Assembly: GCA_903835685.1 (NCBI GenBank)
Contig: CAILNX010000001.1
Location: 1 to 37,724, forward strand
Origin: an uncultured delta proteobacterium
GTDB lineage: Bacteria > Desulfobacterota > Desulfovibrionia > Desulfovibrionales > Desulfovibrionaceae
DNA length: 37,724 bases
Direction: 5' to 3'
Positions 1 to 7,428 of the stretch are shown in pieces; position 1 is the stretch's first letter, and every line of letters begins with the position of its first letter. A model generated the notes under the pieces. The model did not search any database. It saw nothing but the letters and a program-made list of their open reading frames with translations, and was not told the DNA's origin. A program made the translations under genes and the position numbers.

Positions 1-384
1 ATCCAACAGACCGGCGCCCATGGGGGTGCGGCGGTTGAAGATTTCGTAGTCGCCCTTGATCTTGTCGATGCCGGGCTTCATGGCGGCCTTGCGGTAAGGG
101 GCCATGGCCACCTCTTCCTCAAAGGGGGCGAAGGTGAACAGGCCGCCCATGTACTGAAGTTCCGGGATGGCCTGGGTCATGGAGGTCAGGAGTTCCTTGA
201 CCAGAACGATCTTGCGCTTGTTCACGTCCTTGTGGAGCATGGCCATGGAGCCCGAGTAGTCCACGAAGAGGATGAAATTGTCTACTTTGGGCACCAGCTT
301 TTCAGCCAGAACCGAAGAGGACAGAAACAGGATGGACAGGATGCCCATCGCCAGAGTCAAATACAGTCTTTTTACTTGAAACAT
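1..384 (-). CDS. Secreted VWA-domain protein, 5' part only
   Basis: The gene runs off the window's left edge; only the first 128 codons are present. It starts with ATG at 384, with AGGAG about 8 bases upstream. Residues 1-27 form a signal peptide (MFQVKRLYLT, hydrophobic core, ending SSSVLA). The mature part opens a von Willebrand factor A domain: the beta strand NFILFVDYSGSMA contains the metal-ion-dependent adhesion motif DxSxS (Asp42, Ser44, Ser46). The ending RRTPMGAGL resembles the second part of such a domain, where a Thr usually completes the metal site. VWA domains bind protein ligands through the metal. In this group such proteins often continue into an OmpA-like peptidoglycan-binding domain, but that part is not visible here. 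It is divergent from the caspase-like operon, with about 450 bp between them. Confidence 0.8.
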   Translation of the reverse strand, partial: MFQVKRLYLTLAMGILSILFLSSSVLAEKLVPKVDNFILFVDYSGSMAMLHKDVNKRKIVLVKELLTSMTQAIPELQYMGGLFTFAPFEEEVAMAPYRKAAMKPGIDKIKGDYEIFNRRTPMGAGLLD

Positions 385-831
385 GATTCGTATCTCCTGA
401 TAAATATTTATGAAAATAAGCAACATACTTTTCACGCCTTTTCTCACTTAGACCAAAAATACACCGCAAGTGAACTTGTGGCAAGAAATATTATGCATTT
501 GCGCGTTACGTTGAAAGAAAACTTCGCAACGGTTGGGGAGATATTCTTTTCAAGGGGGACCGGCGGGAATTCGGCTCGGTGGAACAGCTTCCTGCCTCGA
601 CAAGGTGTGGCAATGCGGTCAGAACATAAACAATGCATACCTATTCCCACCGATCATTCGTTCTGACTTGTACTGTTCTCGTTTTTTTGGCGGTGTAGGT
701 CAGAGGATTGTTCCCTGGCCCCTTGTCTCTGTCCTTGCCGGTGTGCTAGAAGAACGCAGAAGTGTTTGGCGAATGCGACCCCAGGGCGTCCGGGCCAGGT
801 CCGAACGTCTTACAAGCAGCAGGAGGGCTTC
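385..831. other. Intergenic region between divergent genes
   Basis: This 447 bp region separates the minus-strand VWA gene from the plus-strand WD40-caspase operon and must hold the promoters for both. It is clearly more AT-rich than its surroundings between about 390 and 550. No convincing -35/-10 pair, RNA gene or conserved small ORF could be seen. Open frames through it have no plausible start or domain. Confidence 0.5.
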
Positions 832-3222
832 ATGCGTATCCATCCCCTGGCCCGTATCCCCGCGGTCCTGGCCCCTATCCTGGCCCTTGTCGCGGCCCTT
901 GTGGTGGCCCTGGCCGGCCTGGCCGGAGAGGCCCTGGCCGTTGGCCCGTCCATGGACGTCATGCGTTCGCAAGCCAACGTCATCCGCTCGGCGGTGAAGA
1001 AGAACATCGACATCGTCATCCGGCCCAAGCTGGTGGTGGCCAAGGGGGCCACCGGCCCGGTGTCCACCCTGGCTTTAAGCCCCGACGAGAAATTCCTGAT
1101 CACGGCCGTGGGCGACAACTCGCTGCGGCTGTGGGACTTAAGCGTGGGCCGGGAGGCGGCCATCTTGACCGGGCACGGGGCCAAGATCGCGGCCCTGGCC
1201 GTGAGCCCGGACGGGAAGTTCGCGGCTTCGGCCGACGCCTCGGGTCAGGTGCGGGTGTGGGACCTGAAGAATCCCCAGGAATCCAAGGTCCTGCCCCTGG
1301 CCATGACCGGGGTGTCCCGCCTGGCCTTTGCCAGGGGCGGGCAGAGCCTGCTGCTGGCCGGGTCCTCGGGCGAGGTGGTCATCTGGGACCTGGCCGGGGG
1401 CCGGGAGACCGCGCGCGCGGCCGCCCATTCGGGCGGGGTCCTGGCGCTTACCGTGTCCCCGGACGGCTCCTCCTTCCTCACCTCGGGCGCGGACGGCAAG
1501 GTCAAGCAGTTCGACGCGGCTACCGGCAAGGCCCGCCTGGAGTTCAAGGCCCCGTCCAGCGACATTCTGTGCCTGGCCCTGGGACAGGGGCTGGGCCTGG
1601 CGGCCGGGGGTGGCCGCAAGGGCGAGGCCTATCTCTGGAGCCTGGCCGACGGCAGCCTGGTCAAGAAGTTCGAGGCCCATGACGGGCCGGTGTCCGGGGT
1701 GTCGGTCAACGACGCCTCGGGCCTCATGGCTACAGGCGGGGGCAAGGCCGGGGGCCAGGGCGAGGTCAAGGTCTGGAACGCCCGCACGGGCGCGGCCGTG
1801 AAGACCCTGGGCAAGCACGAGGCCGGGGTGAATTTCGTGCAGGTGGACCGGGAAGGGACCTTCGTGCTCTCGGCCTCGGAGGACGGGACCACCCGGCTGT
1901 GGAACATCCTGGGCGGCAACCTCCTGGTGACCATGATCTCCACGGTGAACGGCTGGGCCATTGTGGACGCCCAGGGCCGGTTCGACGGGAACCAGGCCGC
2001 CCTGTCCGGCATCGAATGGCAGGACGGCGCGACCAAGCTGCCGGTGTCCAATTTTTCCGAACTCTACTACGAGCCCACCCTGCTGCCCAAGCTCAAGAGC
2101 GAGCCCGCCTCCCTGGCCGGGGTGAAGTCCATCACCGAGGGCATCCATCTGCCGCCCACGGTGGAGATCGACCCGGGCCAGGCCGAGGAGGCCAAGACCC
2201 GGGGCGTGGTCAACATCCGGGTGCGCGGCGGGGACCAGGGCGGCAGCGGGGTGGAGGAGGTCCGCCTGTACCAGAACGGCAAGCTGGTGTCCGGGCAGGC
2301 CGCAGCCCAGCCCGAGGTGGTCACCACCGAGGCCGGGGTGGTGGAGATGGTCCGGCGCTACGAGCTGCCCCTGGCCCCGGGGGACAACATGCTGGCGGCC
2401 GTGGCCGTGAACAAGGAACGCCTGGAGAGTCCACCCTCCAGCCTGGTGGTCAAGGGCGGGACGGACGCGGCCCCGCCCACCCTGCACCTGCTCACCGTGG
2501 GCATCAACAAGTACCGCAATTCCAAGCTGAATCTGGACTATGCCGAAGTGGACGCCCGGTCCATCAAGGACTTTTTCACCTCCCCGGGCAAGACCTTCCC
2601 CTTTGCCAAGGTCCAGGTCACCCACCTGGCGGACCAGGAGGCCACCAAGGCGGCCATCCTGAACCTTTTCACACAGGTCCGGCAGATCCCGGCCCAGGAC
2701 ATCGTGGTCCTGTACCTGGCCGGGCACGGCGTGGGCCTGGGCGACGAATGGTATTTCGTGCCCCACGAACTGGAGAACCCGGAGTCCGGGCAGGTCCAGA
2801 GCATGGGTCTGTCCTCCCGGGAATTCAAGCAGGAGGTGGAGTCCATCTCGGCCAACCGGGTCTTTCTGGTCATCGACGCCTGCCATTCGGGCGGGGCCGT
2901 GTCGCCCATCAAGGACTTCCAGGGCATGAAGGCCCTGCGCATGCTGGCCCGCAACTCCGGGGTGCACGTGCTTTCGGCCACGGACAAGAACCAGTTCGCC
3001 GTGGAGCTGTCCCAGCTCAAGCACGGGGTGTTCACCTATTCCCTGCTCAAGGGGTTGGCTGGCGAGGCGGACACAAGCCACGACGGCACGGTCAGCGTGG
3101 AGGAGGCCATGGGCTTTGTGGAGCGCATGGTCCCATTGCTCAGCCAGAGGTACGCCAACTACATGCAGTATCCCACGGCCCATTCCCGGGGGTTTGATTT
3201 CCCCCTGGTGAATACGCGTTAA
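832..3222 (+). CDS. Secreted WD40-repeat caspase-like (C14) protein
   Basis: 796 aa; the ATG at 832 is chosen because AGGAGG lies at 821-826 and a signal peptide (cleavage near GEALA, residue ~36) begins there. Residues ~65-365 are about seven WD40 repeats with SPDGKF turns and LWD/VWD ends, expected to form a propeller for protein binding. A WAIVDAQGRFDGN segment follows, a motif common after propellers in bacterial WD40-caspase proteins. Residues ~430-540 look like a bacterial Ig-like domain. Residues ~551-790 are a caspase-fold peptidase: catalytic His632 in YLAGHG and Cys684 in IDACHSGG are both present, so it is probably active. Substrate is unknown; family members usually cut after basic residues or Asp. 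The stop codon overlaps the start of the CHASE2 cyclase gene, so the two are probably translationally coupled. The signal peptide puts the protein outside the cytoplasm. Confidence 0.88.
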   Translation: MRIHPLARIPAVLAPILALVAALVVALAGLAGEALAVGPSMDVMRSQANVIRSAVKKNIDIVIRPKLVVAKGATGPVSTLALSPDEKFLITAVGDNSLRLWDLSVGREAAILTGHGAKIAALAVSPDGKFAASADASGQVRVWDLKNPQESKVLPLAMTGVSRLAFARGGQSLLLAGSSGEVVIWDLAGGRETARAAAHSGGVLALTVSPDGSSFLTSGADGKVKQFDAATGKARLEFKAPSSDILCLALGQGLGLAAGGGRKGEAYLWSLADGSLVKKFEAHDGPVSGVSVNDASGLMATGGGKAGGQGEVKVWNARTGAAVKTLGKHEAGVNFVQVDREGTFVLSASEDGTTRLWNILGGNLLVTMISTVNGWAIVDAQGRFDGNQAALSGIEWQDGATKLPVSNFSELYYEPTLLPKLKSEPASLAGVKSITEGIHLPPTVEIDPGQAEEAKTRGVVNIRVRGGDQGGSGVEEVRLYQNGKLVSGQAAAQPEVVTTEAGVVEMVRRYELPLAPGDNMLAAVAVNKERLESPPSSLVVKGGTDAAPPTLHLLTVGINKYRNSKLNLDYAEVDARSIKDFFTSPGKTFPFAKVQVTHLADQEATKAAILNLFTQVRQIPAQDIVVLYLAGHGVGLGDEWYFVPHELENPESGQVQSMGLSSREFKQEVESISANRVFLVIDACHSGGAVSPIKDFQGMKALRMLARNSGVHVLSATDKNQFAVELSQLKHGVFTYSLLKGLAGEADTSHDGTVSVEEAMGFVERMVPLLSQRYANYMQYPTAHSRGFDFPLVNTR

Positions 3223-5105
3223 TGGCTATGCCCATGTCCATGCCAGACGCCCGGAGCCTCCAATCCCGGCCAACCCTGGCCCTGGCCGCAGCCCTGGTCG
3301 CGGCCCTTCTGGTCCTCGGCCTGGACGCCCTGTCGGCCTTCTCCCACCTGGAGTACCTGGCCCACGACGCCTATTTCGCGGCCAAGGCCCGTTTGCGTCC
3401 CCAGGCGGCCGAGGCCCCCATCTCCCTGATCGAGATGGACGACGCCACCTTCATGGACCCGGATTTCCGCAAGCCCCACATCTTCTGGTACACGGAGTAC
3501 GCGGACTTGATCGTGGCCCTGGCCGAGGCCAAGGCCAAGGTGGTGGCCCTGGACCACATGCTCCCGGACGTGCTCTTCGACGACTTCATTCCGGGCTATT
3601 CCCAGCGCTGGATCAAGGCCCTGGGCCTGGCCGCCCGGGCCGGGACCCCGGTCATCCTGGGCTACCAGGACTACCCGGACTCGGCCCTTCTGCCCAACGC
3701 CCGGTACATGAGCGCCCTGCGCGCGGCCCAGATGGCCTCTCCCAACCGGGCCAAGGGCGGGGAGGAGCGCTCCTGGCTCGGGTTCTTCAACCTGGCGGCG
3801 GACAAGGACAATTTCGTGCGGCGCTACACCCTGCGCCTGCCCGGGGCCAAACCCGGGGGGTCGCCTTTGAGCTTCGCCCTGGCCGCAGCCCTGGCCGTGG
3901 ACCCGGCCCTGTCCTTTCCCGAGGCCATTTTCGTGGACTATCCCACCCAGGACCCGGCCTTTCCCCGGTTTAGCCTGGCCGAGGTCGTGCGCCACGTGCG
4001 CGCCGGGGACACGGCCTATCTGGCCGAGCATTTTGGGGACCGCTACGTGTTCATCGGGTCCACGGATTCCCGCAACCAGGACGCCCATCCCACGCCCCTG
4101 TACTACACCACGGGCGAGCGCAACTTAAAGACCCCGGGCGTGGTCATCCACGCCTCGGCCCTGGACACCCTGCTTTCGGGCCGCCTGGCCCGGGGCCTGG
4201 GGTTTGCGGGCCGGGCCGCCCTGTACCTGGCCTGCGCCCTGGCCGTGGCCTTTGCGGTCATGTTCTGCCCCGAGCGGTTCATGATCCTGCCCGCCCCGGC
4301 CACCCTGGCCGCCCTGGCTGCCGTGGGCCTGTGGGCCTTTTTAAGCCGGATGATCCTGCCCGTGGCCCAGGGGGCCATCGCCCTGGTCCTGTCCGGGTTC
4401 GGGGCCTTTCTGGCCCGGGACTTCATCGTGAACCGGGAGAAGCGCCGTCTGCGCAACCTCTTTCAGCGCTACCTGCCCCCCACCGTGGTGGAGCAGATGG
4501 TCACGGGCCATGACGCGGACTTCTTCGCCGGGCAGAACAAGCGGCTGTGCATCCTGTTTTCCGACGTGCGCAGCTTCACCACCTATTCCGAGAACCGCAC
4601 CCCGGCCGAGATCGTGGGTCGGCTCAACGCCTATTTCCACGCCATGGCCGAGGAGATCGGCCGGGAAGGCGGGATCGTGGACAAGTTCATCGGCGACGGC
4701 ATTCTGGCCTTTTTCGGGGCGGTGCGGCCCACGGCCAACCCCAGTCTGGACGGGGTGCGCGCGGCCCTGCGCATGCAGGAGCGCCTGAAAGTCTTGAACG
4801 AGACCTGGACCGCCCGGGGGGAGCCGCCCTTCAAAATCGGCGTGGGCCTGCACACCGGCCTGGTCATGGTCGGCAACATCGGGTCCGAGTACAAGACCGA
4901 GTTCACGGTCATCGGGGATGCGGTGAACCTGGCCAGCCGCCTGGAAAGCACCACCAAGGAGCTGGCCACGCCCATTCTGGTCAGCCAGACCGTGGCCGAG
5001 GACATTGCTGAGTTCATGGAGACCGAGGAGAAAGGCGTGGTGCCCATCAAGGGGCGCCACGAAGAAAACGTTTTTGGGGTCATCGGCCCCAGGAGGCCCG
5101 CATGA
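3222..5105 (+). CDS. CHASE2-domain adenylate/guanylate cyclase
   Basis: 627 aa membrane protein, predicted to make cyclic AMP (or cGMP) in response to a signal outside the cytoplasm. A transmembrane segment (~18-36) leads into an extracytoplasmic CHASE2 sensor (~40-310). Two or three closely spaced membrane helices follow (~326-347, 353-372, 377-397), then a cytoplasmic class III cyclase domain (~405-620). The two metal-binding aspartates are visible, Asp448 in LFSDVRSF and Asp492 in KFIGDGILAFFG. The TVIGDAVNLASRLE segment is also intact, so the enzyme should be catalytic. The Asp in that last motif favours ATP over GTP, but this is not certain. The ATG overlaps the TAA of the caspase-like gene by one base. 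No strong ribosome site is seen, which suggests translational coupling; Met codons a few residues later are alternative starts. The next gene overlaps its end by 4 bases. Confidence 0.88.
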   Translation: MAMPMSMPDARSLQSRPTLALAAALVAALLVLGLDALSAFSHLEYLAHDAYFAAKARLRPQAAEAPISLIEMDDATFMDPDFRKPHIFWYTEYADLIVALAEAKAKVVALDHMLPDVLFDDFIPGYSQRWIKALGLAARAGTPVILGYQDYPDSALLPNARYMSALRAAQMASPNRAKGGEERSWLGFFNLAADKDNFVRRYTLRLPGAKPGGSPLSFALAAALAVDPALSFPEAIFVDYPTQDPAFPRFSLAEVVRHVRAGDTAYLAEHFGDRYVFIGSTDSRNQDAHPTPLYYTTGERNLKTPGVVIHASALDTLLSGRLARGLGFAGRAALYLACALAVAFAVMFCPERFMILPAPATLAALAAVGLWAFLSRMILPVAQGAIALVLSGFGAFLARDFIVNREKRRLRNLFQRYLPPTVVEQMVTGHDADFFAGQNKRLCILFSDVRSFTTYSENRTPAEIVGRLNAYFHAMAEEIGREGGIVDKFIGDGILAFFGAVRPTANPSLDGVRAALRMQERLKVLNETWTARGEPPFKIGVGLHTGLVMVGNIGSEYKTEFTVIGDAVNLASRLESTTKELATPILVSQTVAEDIAEFMETEEKGVVPIKGRHEENVFGVIGPRRPA

Positions 5106-6019
5106 AACGATGTGCCGCATTCATCATTGTCGTCCTGGTCCTGTGGGCCACGCCCGCGCTCTGCGTCGAATCCTCCATCCTGGTCATGGACATGGCCGGG
5201 GGCAAGGCCACCATGGCCTCGGGTCCCATGGCCGGGACCGAGCTTTCGCCCATGGACTTCCTCCTGCCCGAGGACAGCGTGACTGTGCCCAAGGGCGTGC
5301 GTCTGGTGCTCAACTATCTGGATTCGGGCCTGCGCGAGGAGATCATTGGCCCGGCCGTCCTGACCGTGGGCAAGACCCAGAGCGCCCTGACCCAGGGTGC
5401 GCCCGGGCAGCTCAAGCGGGAGTCCCTGGACTACATGCCGGACAAGGCCAAGGTGGCCCTGGCCGAGGCCCAGAACTTCGGAAACGTGGCCTTCCGGGAC
5501 GTCTCCACCGCCAAGTCCCCGCCAGCGATCCGGATCTTGAGCCTCATGAACACCGCCGTCATGCCCGGGACCAGGCCCAGTCTGCGCTTTTTGCCGGTGG
5601 ACGGGGCCGAGTCCTATTTGGTGGTGATGAAGGACAACAGCGGGGCGACCTTGCAGAATGTCCCTCTGGACCAGGGGCCGTATTCCCCGGACCCGTCCTA
5701 TCTCACCCCGGGCCGCCAGTTGGCCTGGACCCTGACCGCGCTCAAAGGCGGACAGCCCCTGGCCGAGGCCCAGGGCAAGTTCTCGGTCCTGGCCAAGGAC
5801 AGCGCGGCCGCCCTCAAGACCGAGACCGCGAGGCTCAAGGCCAAGCGCAAGGCCGAGAGCACCGAGGGCCAGGTGTTCTTGTCCCTGCTGTACCAGGGCT
5901 ACGGGCTGAACGACGACGCGGCCGAGGTGCTCCTGGCCCTGGCCAAGAAGAATCCGGACAACCTGGCCATCACCCGCCGCCTGGAGGCCTTGAATCCGGC
6001 CCTGGTCCCCAAGCCCTAG
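5102..6019 (+). CDS. Exported FecR-like protein with TPR-like C-terminus
   Basis: 305 aa. The start overlaps the cyclase stop (ATGA), with AGGAGG just upstream. Residues 1-22 are a signal peptide ending near PALC. Residues ~25-110 resemble the FecR-type beta domain often encoded beside CHASE2 cyclases: SPMDFLLPEDSVTVPKG, a stretch like LVLNYLDSG, then EEIIGPAVLTVG. A middle part (~145-235) may be a second beta domain. The C-terminus (~265-300) has helices with a TPR flavour (AAEVLLALAKKNPDNLAI). There is no membrane anchor after the signal peptide, so it is probably periplasmic. Its position suggests that it binds or tunes the CHASE2 sensor or the caspase-like protein, but that is inferred from context only. 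Domain assignment is moderate; the gene itself is secure. Confidence 0.72.
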   Translation: MKRCAAFIIVVLVLWATPALCVESSILVMDMAGGKATMASGPMAGTELSPMDFLLPEDSVTVPKGVRLVLNYLDSGLREEIIGPAVLTVGKTQSALTQGAPGQLKRESLDYMPDKAKVALAEAQNFGNVAFRDVSTAKSPPAIRILSLMNTAVMPGTRPSLRFLPVDGAESYLVVMKDNSGATLQNVPLDQGPYSPDPSYLTPGRQLAWTLTALKGGQPLAEAQGKFSVLAKDSAAALKTETARLKAKRKAESTEGQVFLSLLYQGYGLNDDAAEVLLALAKKNPDNLAITRRLEALNPALVPKP

Positions 6020-6300: not shown

Positions 6301-7428
6301 ATGGAAAAGATTTTGTTCGTGGACGACGAACCCAACATCCTGGACACCTTCCGGCGGGCCTTTCACAAGCGCTATGAGCTGGAGACCGCCTCGGGCTCCC
6401 TGGTCGCCCTGGACCTGCTGCAAAGCCACGGTCCCTTTGCCGTGGTGGTCTCGGACCTGAAAATGCCGGGCATGGACGGCATCGAGCTTTTGAGCAAGAT
6501 CCACATCGCAAGCCCAACCACGGTGCGCATCATGCTCACCGGGCACGCGGACCTGGAGGCGGCCATAGCGGCCGTGAACGAAGGCAATGTCTTCCGCTTC
6601 CTGACCAAGCCCTGCCCGGCCGAGAGCATGGCCAAGGCCGTGGACGCCGGAATCGAACAGTACCGGCTGGTCATGGCCGAGCGGGAGCTTTTGCGCGGAA
6701 CCCTGCTCGGAAGCGTGGCCATGCTCACGGACCTTCTGGCCATGGCCAATCCCGAGGCCTTTGGCCGCAGCGGCCGGATCAAGCGGCACATGTTCCATCT
6801 GGCCCGCAAGCTGGAGGTCAAGAACGTCTGGCGCTACGAGGCGGCGGCCATGCTTTCCCAGGTCGGGTGCATCACCATCCCCGAGCCCATCCTCAGGAAG
6901 CGCTATCGCGGCGCGGCCTTGACCTTCGAGGAGCAGATGGTGATGGACCAGCACACGGCCATTTCCTCGGCGCTTTTGTCCAACATCCCCAGGCTGGAAT
7001 CCGTGCGCGAGATCATCGTGCGCCAGAACGACCCCTTCGACCGGGAATCTCCGCCCCCCCTGGGATCGCGCATGCTCAAGGTCATCCTGGACTACGACGA
7101 CCTGGAGCAGCAGGGCCTGGACAAGGTCGAGGCCGTGGGCGAGATGCAATTGCGCGAGGGGATGTACGATCCGGTGGTCCTGGAGTTGTTCTCGCAGTAT
7201 CTCTTCGGCGGGGAGCGGTGCATCCCCCGTCAGCTTCGCCTGGAGGAGATGCGGCCGGGCATGATCCTGGGCCAGGAGGTCAAGGCCCCCAGCGGGCTCA
7301 TGCTCATGGCCAAGGGCCAGTACCTGAACGAACCGGCCATAAAGCGTCTGGCCAGCTTCACCCGCTCCCACGGGGTGCAGGAGCCCATCCTGGTGCTCAT
7401 CCCGGTGGATGGAACCGGGACCTGCTAG
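6301..7428 (+). CDS. Response regulator with degenerate HD-GYP domain
   Basis: 375 aa; ATG at 6301 with GGAGGG just upstream. Residues 1-120 are a receiver domain: acidic pair Asp8-Asp9, phospho-acceptor Asp52 in VVSDLKMPG, Thr80 and Lys103 in FLTKPCP. Residues ~145-310 follow the RpfG-type HD-GYP fold, the class that breaks down cyclic-di-GMP. The catalytic residues are gone: the usual HDIGK reads LSQVGCI, and the HH/DGSGYP region reads IVRQNDPFDRE. One His survives in MDQHTAIS. The protein is therefore probably a non-catalytic output or binding partner. The last ~60 residues (LRLEEMRPGMILGQEV onward) are a small domain found at the end of many HD/HDOD regulators. No sensor kinase is adjacent. 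It converges on gabD with 3 bases between stops and a short GGGCTT/AAGCCC hairpin across the junction. Confidence 0.85.
   Translation: MEKILFVDDEPNILDTFRRAFHKRYELETASGSLVALDLLQSHGPFAVVVSDLKMPGMDGIELLSKIHIASPTTVRIMLTGHADLEAAIAAVNEGNVFRFLTKPCPAESMAKAVDAGIEQYRLVMAERELLRGTLLGSVAMLTDLLAMANPEAFGRSGRIKRHMFHLARKLEVKNVWRYEAAAMLSQVGCITIPEPILRKRYRGAALTFEEQMVMDQHTAISSALLSNIPRLESVREIIVRQNDPFDRESPPPLGSRMLKVILDYDDLEQQGLDKVEAVGEMQLREGMYDPVVLELFSQYLFGGERCIPRQLRLEEMRPGMILGQEVKAPSGLMLMAKGQYLNEPAIKRLASFTRSHGVQEPILVLIPVDGTGTC

Follow-up and report, generated by a model that had tools for sequence, protein, structure and literature searches.

A WD40-caspase gene joined to a CHASE2 cyclase gene in Desulfovibrionaceae: a candidate link between the cell envelope and cyclic AMP

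The stretch of DNA analysed here (the window) is the entire 37,724-base contig CAILNX010000001.1 (assembly GCA_903835685.1) of an uncultured delta proteobacterium of the family Desulfovibrionaceae. Near its start, three forward-strand genes overlap: one for a WD40, Ig-like and caspase (C14) protein, one for a CHASE2 class III nucleotide cyclase, and one for an exported protein that had been called FecR-like. The last A of the caspase stop codon TAA (3220-3222) is the first base of the cyclase ATG at 3222, an overlap of one base, and the cyclase and third genes share four bases (ATGA, 5102-5105). The original prediction, made from the letters alone, had proposed three genes overlapping end to start as an envelope signalling system, and its layout is borne out, coordinates included. 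Promoter and terminator scans of the window returned matches at chance level. The following features were read.

821..826, + strand: AGGAGG, Shine-Dalgarno-like, ahead of the caspase ATG at 832 (read directly)
832..3222, + strand: protein of 796 amino acids (aa) with an export-type N-terminus and WD40, Ig-like and caspase (C14) domains (open reading frame (ORF), Pfam, hydropathy, AlphaFold)
832..939, + strand: signal-peptide-like segment, residues 1-36, hydrophobic at 12-30, with a cleavage-like end ALA (hydropathy)
1024..1941, + strand: WD40 propeller, residues ~65-370 (PF00400, 133.6 bits; AlphaFold 2 (AF2) predicted local distance difference test (pLDDT) ~90; fold matches)
2158..2457, + strand: Ig-like beta sandwich, residues ~443-542 (AF2 strands, pLDDT only ~60)
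2479..3201, + strand: caspase domain, residues ~550-790 (PF00656, 59.4 bits)
2725..2727, + strand: catalytic His632 (GHG), invariant in 5/5 aligned orthologues
2881..2883, + strand: catalytic Cys684 (DACHSG); Asp682, two residues upstream, is also invariant (5/5 aligned orthologues)
3222..5105, + strand: CHASE2 - class III nucleotide cyclase, 627 aa (ORF, Pfam, conserved residues)
3300..4184, + strand: CHASE2 sensor domain, residues 27-321 (PF05226, 103.8 bits, cut-off 26.3)
4536..5075, + strand: cyclase catalytic domain, residues 439-618, with metal Asp448 and Asp492, Lys488 and Thr562 (PF00211 (Guanylate_cyc), 80.9 bits, cut-off 21.9)
5102..6019, + strand: exported 'FecR-like' protein, 305 aa (ORF, hydropathy; no family match)

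The first protein belongs to the C14 family by its Pfam score (59.4 bits against a curated cut-off of 21.4) and has the His/Cys dyad of that family (His632, Cys684); proteolysis itself is predicted. The earlier description of a propeller followed by a caspase fold with both catalytic residues intact is therefore upheld by PF00400, PF00656 and the conservation in 5/5 orthologues. Asp682, beside the cysteine, presumably indicates cleavage following Arg or Lys. In the AF2 model, built from four sequences (mean pLDDT 63.8), the propeller is confident, the Ig sandwich weaker and the caspase domain partial, with pLDDT below 50 over residues 683-796. Foldseek ranks WD40 propellers first for this model, and one of the best PDB matches is the 7-bladed 7bie (TMt 0.91). 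Retention of the caspase in the cytoplasm, which would undercut the proposed system, is unlikely, since the N-terminus appears signal-like, by eye, in 6/6 listed caspase orthologues.

The second protein contains both domains of a CHASE2-class III cyclase, with hydrophobic segments on either side of CHASE2 (hydropathy). Asp448, Asp492, Lys488, Thr562, Asn569 and Arg573 are invariant in 4/4 orthologues, so that the claim of a CHASE2-sensor cyclase with intact metal aspartates holds on PF05226, PF00211 and this conservation. We take Asp448 and Asp492 to be the metal aspartates, Lys488 the substrate lysine, and Asn569 and Arg573 the transition-state residues; Lys488 and Thr562 presumably point to ATP as the substrate. 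Judged by these residues, the membrane cyclase of the window probably makes cyclic AMP (cAMP).

Bacterial caspases are mostly discussed in the context of cell death, and the pair could be read as a defence or cell-death system, either Pycsar-like, with the caspase as effector of the cyclase, or a conflict system of the EACC1 type. The PADLOC models PycC (102.4 bits, on the cyclase domain) and 'caspase' (54.8 bits) do match, in a scan of only the three operon proteins. The NCBIfam model of the EACC1-associated caspase (NF047832) also matches, but at 74.5 bits against a cut-off of 140, and membership of that family failed. CHASE2 is listed among the variable domains of EACC1-type systems in the sections available of one source (PMC8195603). 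On the other hand, the cyclase carries a CHASE2 ectodomain, an architecture that differs from Pycsar, the partner proteins belong to the envelope, and the signal-like start of all six caspases would place them across the membrane from the cytoplasm, in which a suicide effector would have to act. We regard a defence role as very improbable.

For the third protein, no Pfam or NCBIfam family matched at E <= 0.1, and membership of FecR (PF04773) failed. Of the predicted exported FecR-like protein, export is thus consistent with a signal-like N-terminus (hydropathy), while the FecR label is left without Pfam or NCBIfam support. Its layout may comprise a signal segment, a beta region, a possible Fn3-like region and a helical C-terminus, as drawn from a poor AF2 model (pLDDT 38.4) and no alignment; a candidate basic stretch lies after residue 238, ahead of the helical part. 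Homology to MtxA (PF22121, PF22433) by sequence was considered and rejected, with no Pfam match and an hhalign comparison against the MtxA of locus L185 at E 0.025 (probability 2%). Of the MtxA-type arrangement (signal, beta, Ig/Fn3 and TPR regions), adjacency to a cyclase is present, and the likeness in layout comes from the poor AF2 model and from inspection by eye only. A single-sequence search of 38 other genomes (genomes G148, G642 and HSG9, described below, were not among them) gave no match. A relative was recognized by hhalign in locus L202 (E 5.8e-6, probability 85%, against E 0.38 for an unrelated control): a 322-aa exported protein encoded between a CHAT gene and a cyclase gene.

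In the source genome, CHASE2 and C14 match three times each. Of 149 family genomes, 94 contain CHASE2 and 37 contain C14 (117 C14 matches), and a comparison by eye of the matches listed found the two within 5 kb only in the window and in G068. Genomes of genus g29 (e.g., G028 and G082) have up to 13 C14 matches each, a lineage-specific expansion of caspases. The PF00656 search of the family did not list the caspase of locus L045, which was recovered by profile A7, representing the C-terminal half of the caspase and searched in 288 family genomes. A7 matched something in 47/288 genomes, with only three strong full-length matches: the window (736.6 bits), G148 (716.3) and G642 (630.7), the next best being 191.2. 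Both G148 (L045) and G642 (L177) carry the caspase, the cyclase and a FecR-like gene in the same order as the window. The search for the three families together therefore gave a mixed answer: the trio is conserved in order, in only three of the 288 genomes and two genera. Between the genera, caspase and cyclase are 38-43% identical and the third proteins 24-27%, and by this recurrence at such sequence distances the trio is more than a chance association.

That the genes are neighbours by chance, kept together through descent or transfer and functionally unrelated, can nevertheless be argued from the rarity of the trio and from its relatives outside the family. The Desulfococcaceae genome HSG9 has the caspase in L058 and, on a separate contig (L184), a FecR-like relative that comes directly after a cyclase orthologue (662.8 bits). 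The window shares with HSG9 53% identity in the caspase, 36% in the third protein and 44% in the cyclase, as against 38, 27 and 43% with G148; caspase and third protein are thus nearer to HSG9 than to a genome of the same family, which hints at transfer. All three protein families group the window with HSG9 and G148 with G642, a nearly trivial result that was not counted as co-evolution, because G148 and G642 share a genus. Against chance stand the gene order kept between genera at 38-43% caspase and cyclase identity, and the CHAT analogues of other loci described below. These, beside CHASE2 cyclases in other families and in Alphaproteobacteria, exceed simple descent, even though the exact trio is rare. 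We consider a neighbourhood of this kind improbable.

Two other partners accompany the caspase more steadily than the cyclase does, and the original prediction missed them. A scan of an 84,980-species collection, which used just two peptide patterns so that absence from it means little, found three more full-length caspase relatives, in HSG9, Magnetospirillum sp. UT-4 and a Rhodospirillaceae metagenome-assembled genome. Within ~6 kb of these three caspases, and beside that of G148, lies a gene for an alpha/beta hydrolase (secreted or lipoprotein-like; 38-48% identity among loci), and a small autotransporter barrel (PF03797) is also near all four. Besides the window, eight loci have a single-propeller caspase (L045, L058, L059, L060, L143, L144, L145 and L177), and their range reaches Alphaproteobacteria; the hydrolase is present in 8/8 and the barrel in 7/8, the pair of L059 having been assigned by similarity, without a Pfam scan. 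Because the hydrolase and barrel profiles were built from the first loci, only those found later form an independent test: L143, L144 and L145 (from a 395-genome search) and L177 have the hydrolase in 4/4 and the barrel in 3/4, with the contig of L144 ending 143 bases past the hydrolase. Over 134 loci of at least 5 kb, the hydrolase profile matches nine, namely the eight single-propeller loci and L106 (itself fetched for its hydrolase, on contig C14 of the source genome), and the barrel profile matches seven. Neither gene was found at any of 16 loci with other caspases above 150 bits, in a split of single-propeller from long forms by length that was drawn after the result was seen; L147 and L155, with caspases of the short size and lower scores, also lack both. 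In G642 (L177) five genes lie on one strand (autotransporter, caspase, cyclase, FecR-like, hydrolase), and HSG9 holds relatives of all five. A basic stretch precedes the autotransporter barrel, a suggestive cut site in an alignment too poor for a claim.

Several of these loci have features of their own. In L106 (positions 1434-2237) the hydrolase homologue lies between a Wzt-like ABC ATPase and a membrane protein (by eye), and the 15 kb read there showed no caspase. In L144 (2056-12661), type VI secretion genes (FHA, VasE, DotU) adjoin those for a caspase, the hydrolase, a MopE-type protein with metal-binding repeats and, by eye, an OmpA-like protein, while L143 (6831-11691) has two tandem single-propeller caspases with hydrolase and autotransporter, LysM and OmpA proteins being present as well. 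Four tandem caspase genes of ~900-990 aa, with successive 4-base overlaps, are found in L157 (120-11701), the last one truncated by the contig edge.

This distribution suggests that two modules may merely have been joined. Caspase, hydrolase and autotransporter would serve the maturation of surface proteins, and the CHASE2 cyclase with its FecR-like protein would be an independent envelope sensor, sharing a promoter with the caspase but escaping its action. The imbalance of partners favours it (8/8 and 7/8 for hydrolase and autotransporter, 2/8 for the cyclase in the other single-propeller loci), as do the separate contigs of HSG9 and the report, in the available part of its source, of CHASE2 cyclases with FecR-domain neighbours and no caspase in Campylobacterota (PMC9239204). 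It accounts less readily for the presence of all three genes in HSG9 although unlinked, for the 1-base and 4-base overlaps between the window's genes, and for the recurrence of C14 and CHAT genes beside some CHASE2 cyclases in several layouts. This explanation is a real possibility, if somewhat short of an even chance.

CHAT is a domain that we take to be of the caspase clan, and in several loci it replaces C14 beside the cyclase. The best cyclase match of Magnetospirillum UT-4 is flanked by mtxA (PF22121, 134.5 bits; PF22433, 110.9) and by a TPR-CHAT gene (CHAT, 250.9 bits). A TPR-CHAT gene also adjoins the cyclase in L186 (251.6 bits; upstream side lost to the contig end) and in G087 (L039). 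G068 (L041, 6195-17052, 11 kb) combines a divergent C14 caspase, a CHASE2 cyclase, a CsgG/DUF4384 protein, OmpA and a TPR-CHAT protein, and in G074 (L042) a short gene matches CHAT in part. In a sample of the family (nine loci fetched of 17 listed rows at 90-118 bits besides the window, L043 and L044 being dropped as they had no cyclase match), CHAT or C14 lies within 5 kb in 4/7 cyclase loci (L039, L041, L042 and L045). A preset census drew on 365 Desulfobacterota genomes and used the 40 best cyclase rows, at one per genome and with the window and G327:C350 excluded; several of its loci are cut by contig ends. CHAT occurs there within 5 kb in 4/40. L206 (108-5987) has a single 1959-aa TPS-TPR-CHAT fusion gene overlapping the CHASE2 cyclase gene, then DUF928; L207 has CHAT, cyclase and DUF928; L201 has ShlB, CHAT, cyclase, DUF928 and a cyclic nucleotide monophosphate (cNMP)-binding HD protein; and L202 has CHAT, the 322-aa exported protein, cyclase and a cNMP-binding gene. 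Upstream in L201 and L207 are genes (517 and 1221 aa, respectively) that look TPS-like by eye, with no Pfam match. For comparison, chance would give ~0.3% per locus at 0.8 C14 matches per genome and ~12 kb out of 3.7 Mb, a figure for C14 only. Hydrophobic export-type starts are seen in 8/9 CHAT proteins (L185 by eye), that of L202 being truncated. Type V secretion genes also accompany several such layouts (PF03797 with C14, ShlB in L201, the TPS-CHAT fusion of L206). The gene mtxA was unusable for a wider census, because PF22121 matched only 1/289 Alphaproteobacteria genomes. Taken together, the data support a recurrent but minority arrangement of a caspase-clan protein (mostly with a predicted export-type start), a CHASE2 cyclase and a small exported protein.

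Searches of the open-licence literature in PubMed Central (PMC) found neither the trio nor exported caspases acting in this way described, no paper combining CHASE2, caspase and FecR, and none on CHAT with CHASE2 in this sense. The nearest known systems, described here from the accessible portions of their sources, share parts of it. In Campylobacterota, CHASE2 adenylate cyclases cluster with FecR-domain and TPR proteins (PMC9239204); the cyclase likewise adjoins an exported FecR-domain protein, whereas no caspase-clan protein is reported in those portions and the window protein has no Pfam FecR match. In magnetotactic bacteria, mtxA is followed by a CHASE2 cyclase, and its deletion gave no phenotype (PMC4439547). 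There, an exported protein of beta, Ig/Fn3 and TPR regions likewise adjoins the cyclase, with TPR-CHAT next in Magnetospirillum UT-4, but the partner is CHAT instead of WD40-C14, the window protein shows no significant relation to MtxA (hhalign E 0.025), and 'caspase' does not appear in the main text of that paper as available. A survey of 671 prokaryotic metacaspases gives WD40 as the commonest partner domain (73/671) and N-terminal helices, possibly signal peptides, ahead of 46 single-domain metacaspases (PMC3501461); both traits resemble the window protein, although no CHASE2-cyclase/FecR neighbourhood was found in the consulted part of that survey. A Trichodesmium fusion also couples a caspase domain to a CHASE2 receptor, but in one polypeptide, with the caspase predicted to be cytoplasmic and, in the passages available, no cyclase mentioned (PMC3501461, PMC2853523). 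In a Nostoc cluster, WD40 genes adjoin CHASE2 and DUF928, the latter found here beside CHAT and CHASE2 cyclases; the cluster is cyanobacterial, and its gene list, as far as accessible, has no caspase (PMC5587647). The BiofilmReg operon of Burkholderia pairs an exported LysM-FecR protein with a CHASE2 sensor, but its output is a histidine kinase and no peptidase is reported in the excerpt (PMC5192318). Craspase (TPR-CHAT with Cas7-11) is, according to partial sources, a signal-activated caspase-clan protease as well, unlike the present case an RNA-guided CRISPR effector. The trio hints at an unstudied route from the cutting of envelope proteins to an internal signal.

Such a route might work as an extracytoplasmic checkpoint of the envelope, for which we infer localisation, ligand, substrate, direction of signalling and cAMP as the product. 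The WD40-Ig-caspase protein would be exported and act in the periplasm or at the surface; most of its relatives are tied to an exported alpha/beta hydrolase and an autotransporter-like (type V) protein of the outer membrane. A ligand of the propeller, for example a surface protein or lipid that is mis-assembled or newly arrived, would unleash the caspase, which would cut after a basic residue. Its most likely substrate would be the small exported adaptor accompanying CHASE2, at the candidate stretch after residue 238, or the autotransporter passenger. An altered contact of the adaptor with the CHASE2 ectodomain would then switch the cytoplasmic cyclase and change cAMP. Observed are the gene set, its catalytic residues, the export-type starts, a linkage kept in few genomes and the recurrence with CHAT instead of C14; the intact trios of G148 and G642, the five genes of G642 and their relatives in HSG9, the CHAT loci with the adaptor relative of L202, the type V secretion genes and the cNMP-binding genes of L201 and L202 speak for the checkpoint. 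That proteolysis of an adaptor or autotransporter acts on cAMP through CHASE2 in this manner is proposed tentatively, and it is equally likely as mere co-expression of two modules.

Several observations weigh against this checkpoint. The cyclase adjoins the caspase in only 3/9 single-propeller loci, although two of the six others (L058 and L145) end just beyond the caspase. The caspase cluster is present in G301, where the cyclase profile A2 gives no match, and G351 and G327 have only distant A2 matches; the best of these in G327 lies on another contig (L187) and is a CHASE2 cyclase accompanied by DUF928. The window shows neither hydrolase nor autotransporter across its 37.7 kb, and long-form caspases (L138-L142; ~1,100 aa, 368-384 bits, level with L143-L145) lack hydrolase, autotransporter and cyclase. 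On the side of the cyclase, L037, L038 and L040 have no caspase-clan gene within 5 kb (a small protein follows in L037 and L040), 35/40 census loci have neither CHAT nor C14 within 5 kb, and the lone C14 case (1/40, L235) is 4.8 kb off on the opposite strand. The AF2 model of the third protein failed.

A bolder reading extends the envelope checkpoint beyond these genomes. Exported caspase-clan proteases, C14 or CHAT, would be general partners of one class of CHASE2 adenylate cyclases and, with interchangeable exported adaptors (FecR-like, MtxA, DUF928) and, in several layouts, type V secreted surface proteins, would form a widespread pathway from extracytoplasmic proteolysis to cAMP; we hold this to be rather doubtful. 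The CHASE2 ligand was stated to be unknown in 2016, in the part available of one paper (PMC5192318), and the notion of general partners would, if true, explain what CHASE2 senses here and why mtxA lies in a signalling operon. Extracytoplasmic control of a transmembrane cyclase by the caspase clan would likewise provide a testable CHASE2 input, a signalling role for exported caspase homologues and a hint at what the mtxA operon does. Concrete mutants and substrates for testing are offered by the five-gene set.

The next gene downstream of the trio, a possible further member of the operon, follows after a gap of 281 bases.

6301..7428, + strand: response regulator with HD_5 domain (Pfam/NCBIfam)

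Since L201 encodes a cNMP-binding HD_5 protein close to its CHASE2 cyclase, a link between cAMP and proteins of the c-di-GMP type is possible. In the response regulator of the window, the HD and GYP motifs look degenerate by eye. At the other side of the trio, positions 1-440 (- strand) hold the 5' part of a gene for an exported von Willebrand A-like protein (by eye), truncated by the contig edge.

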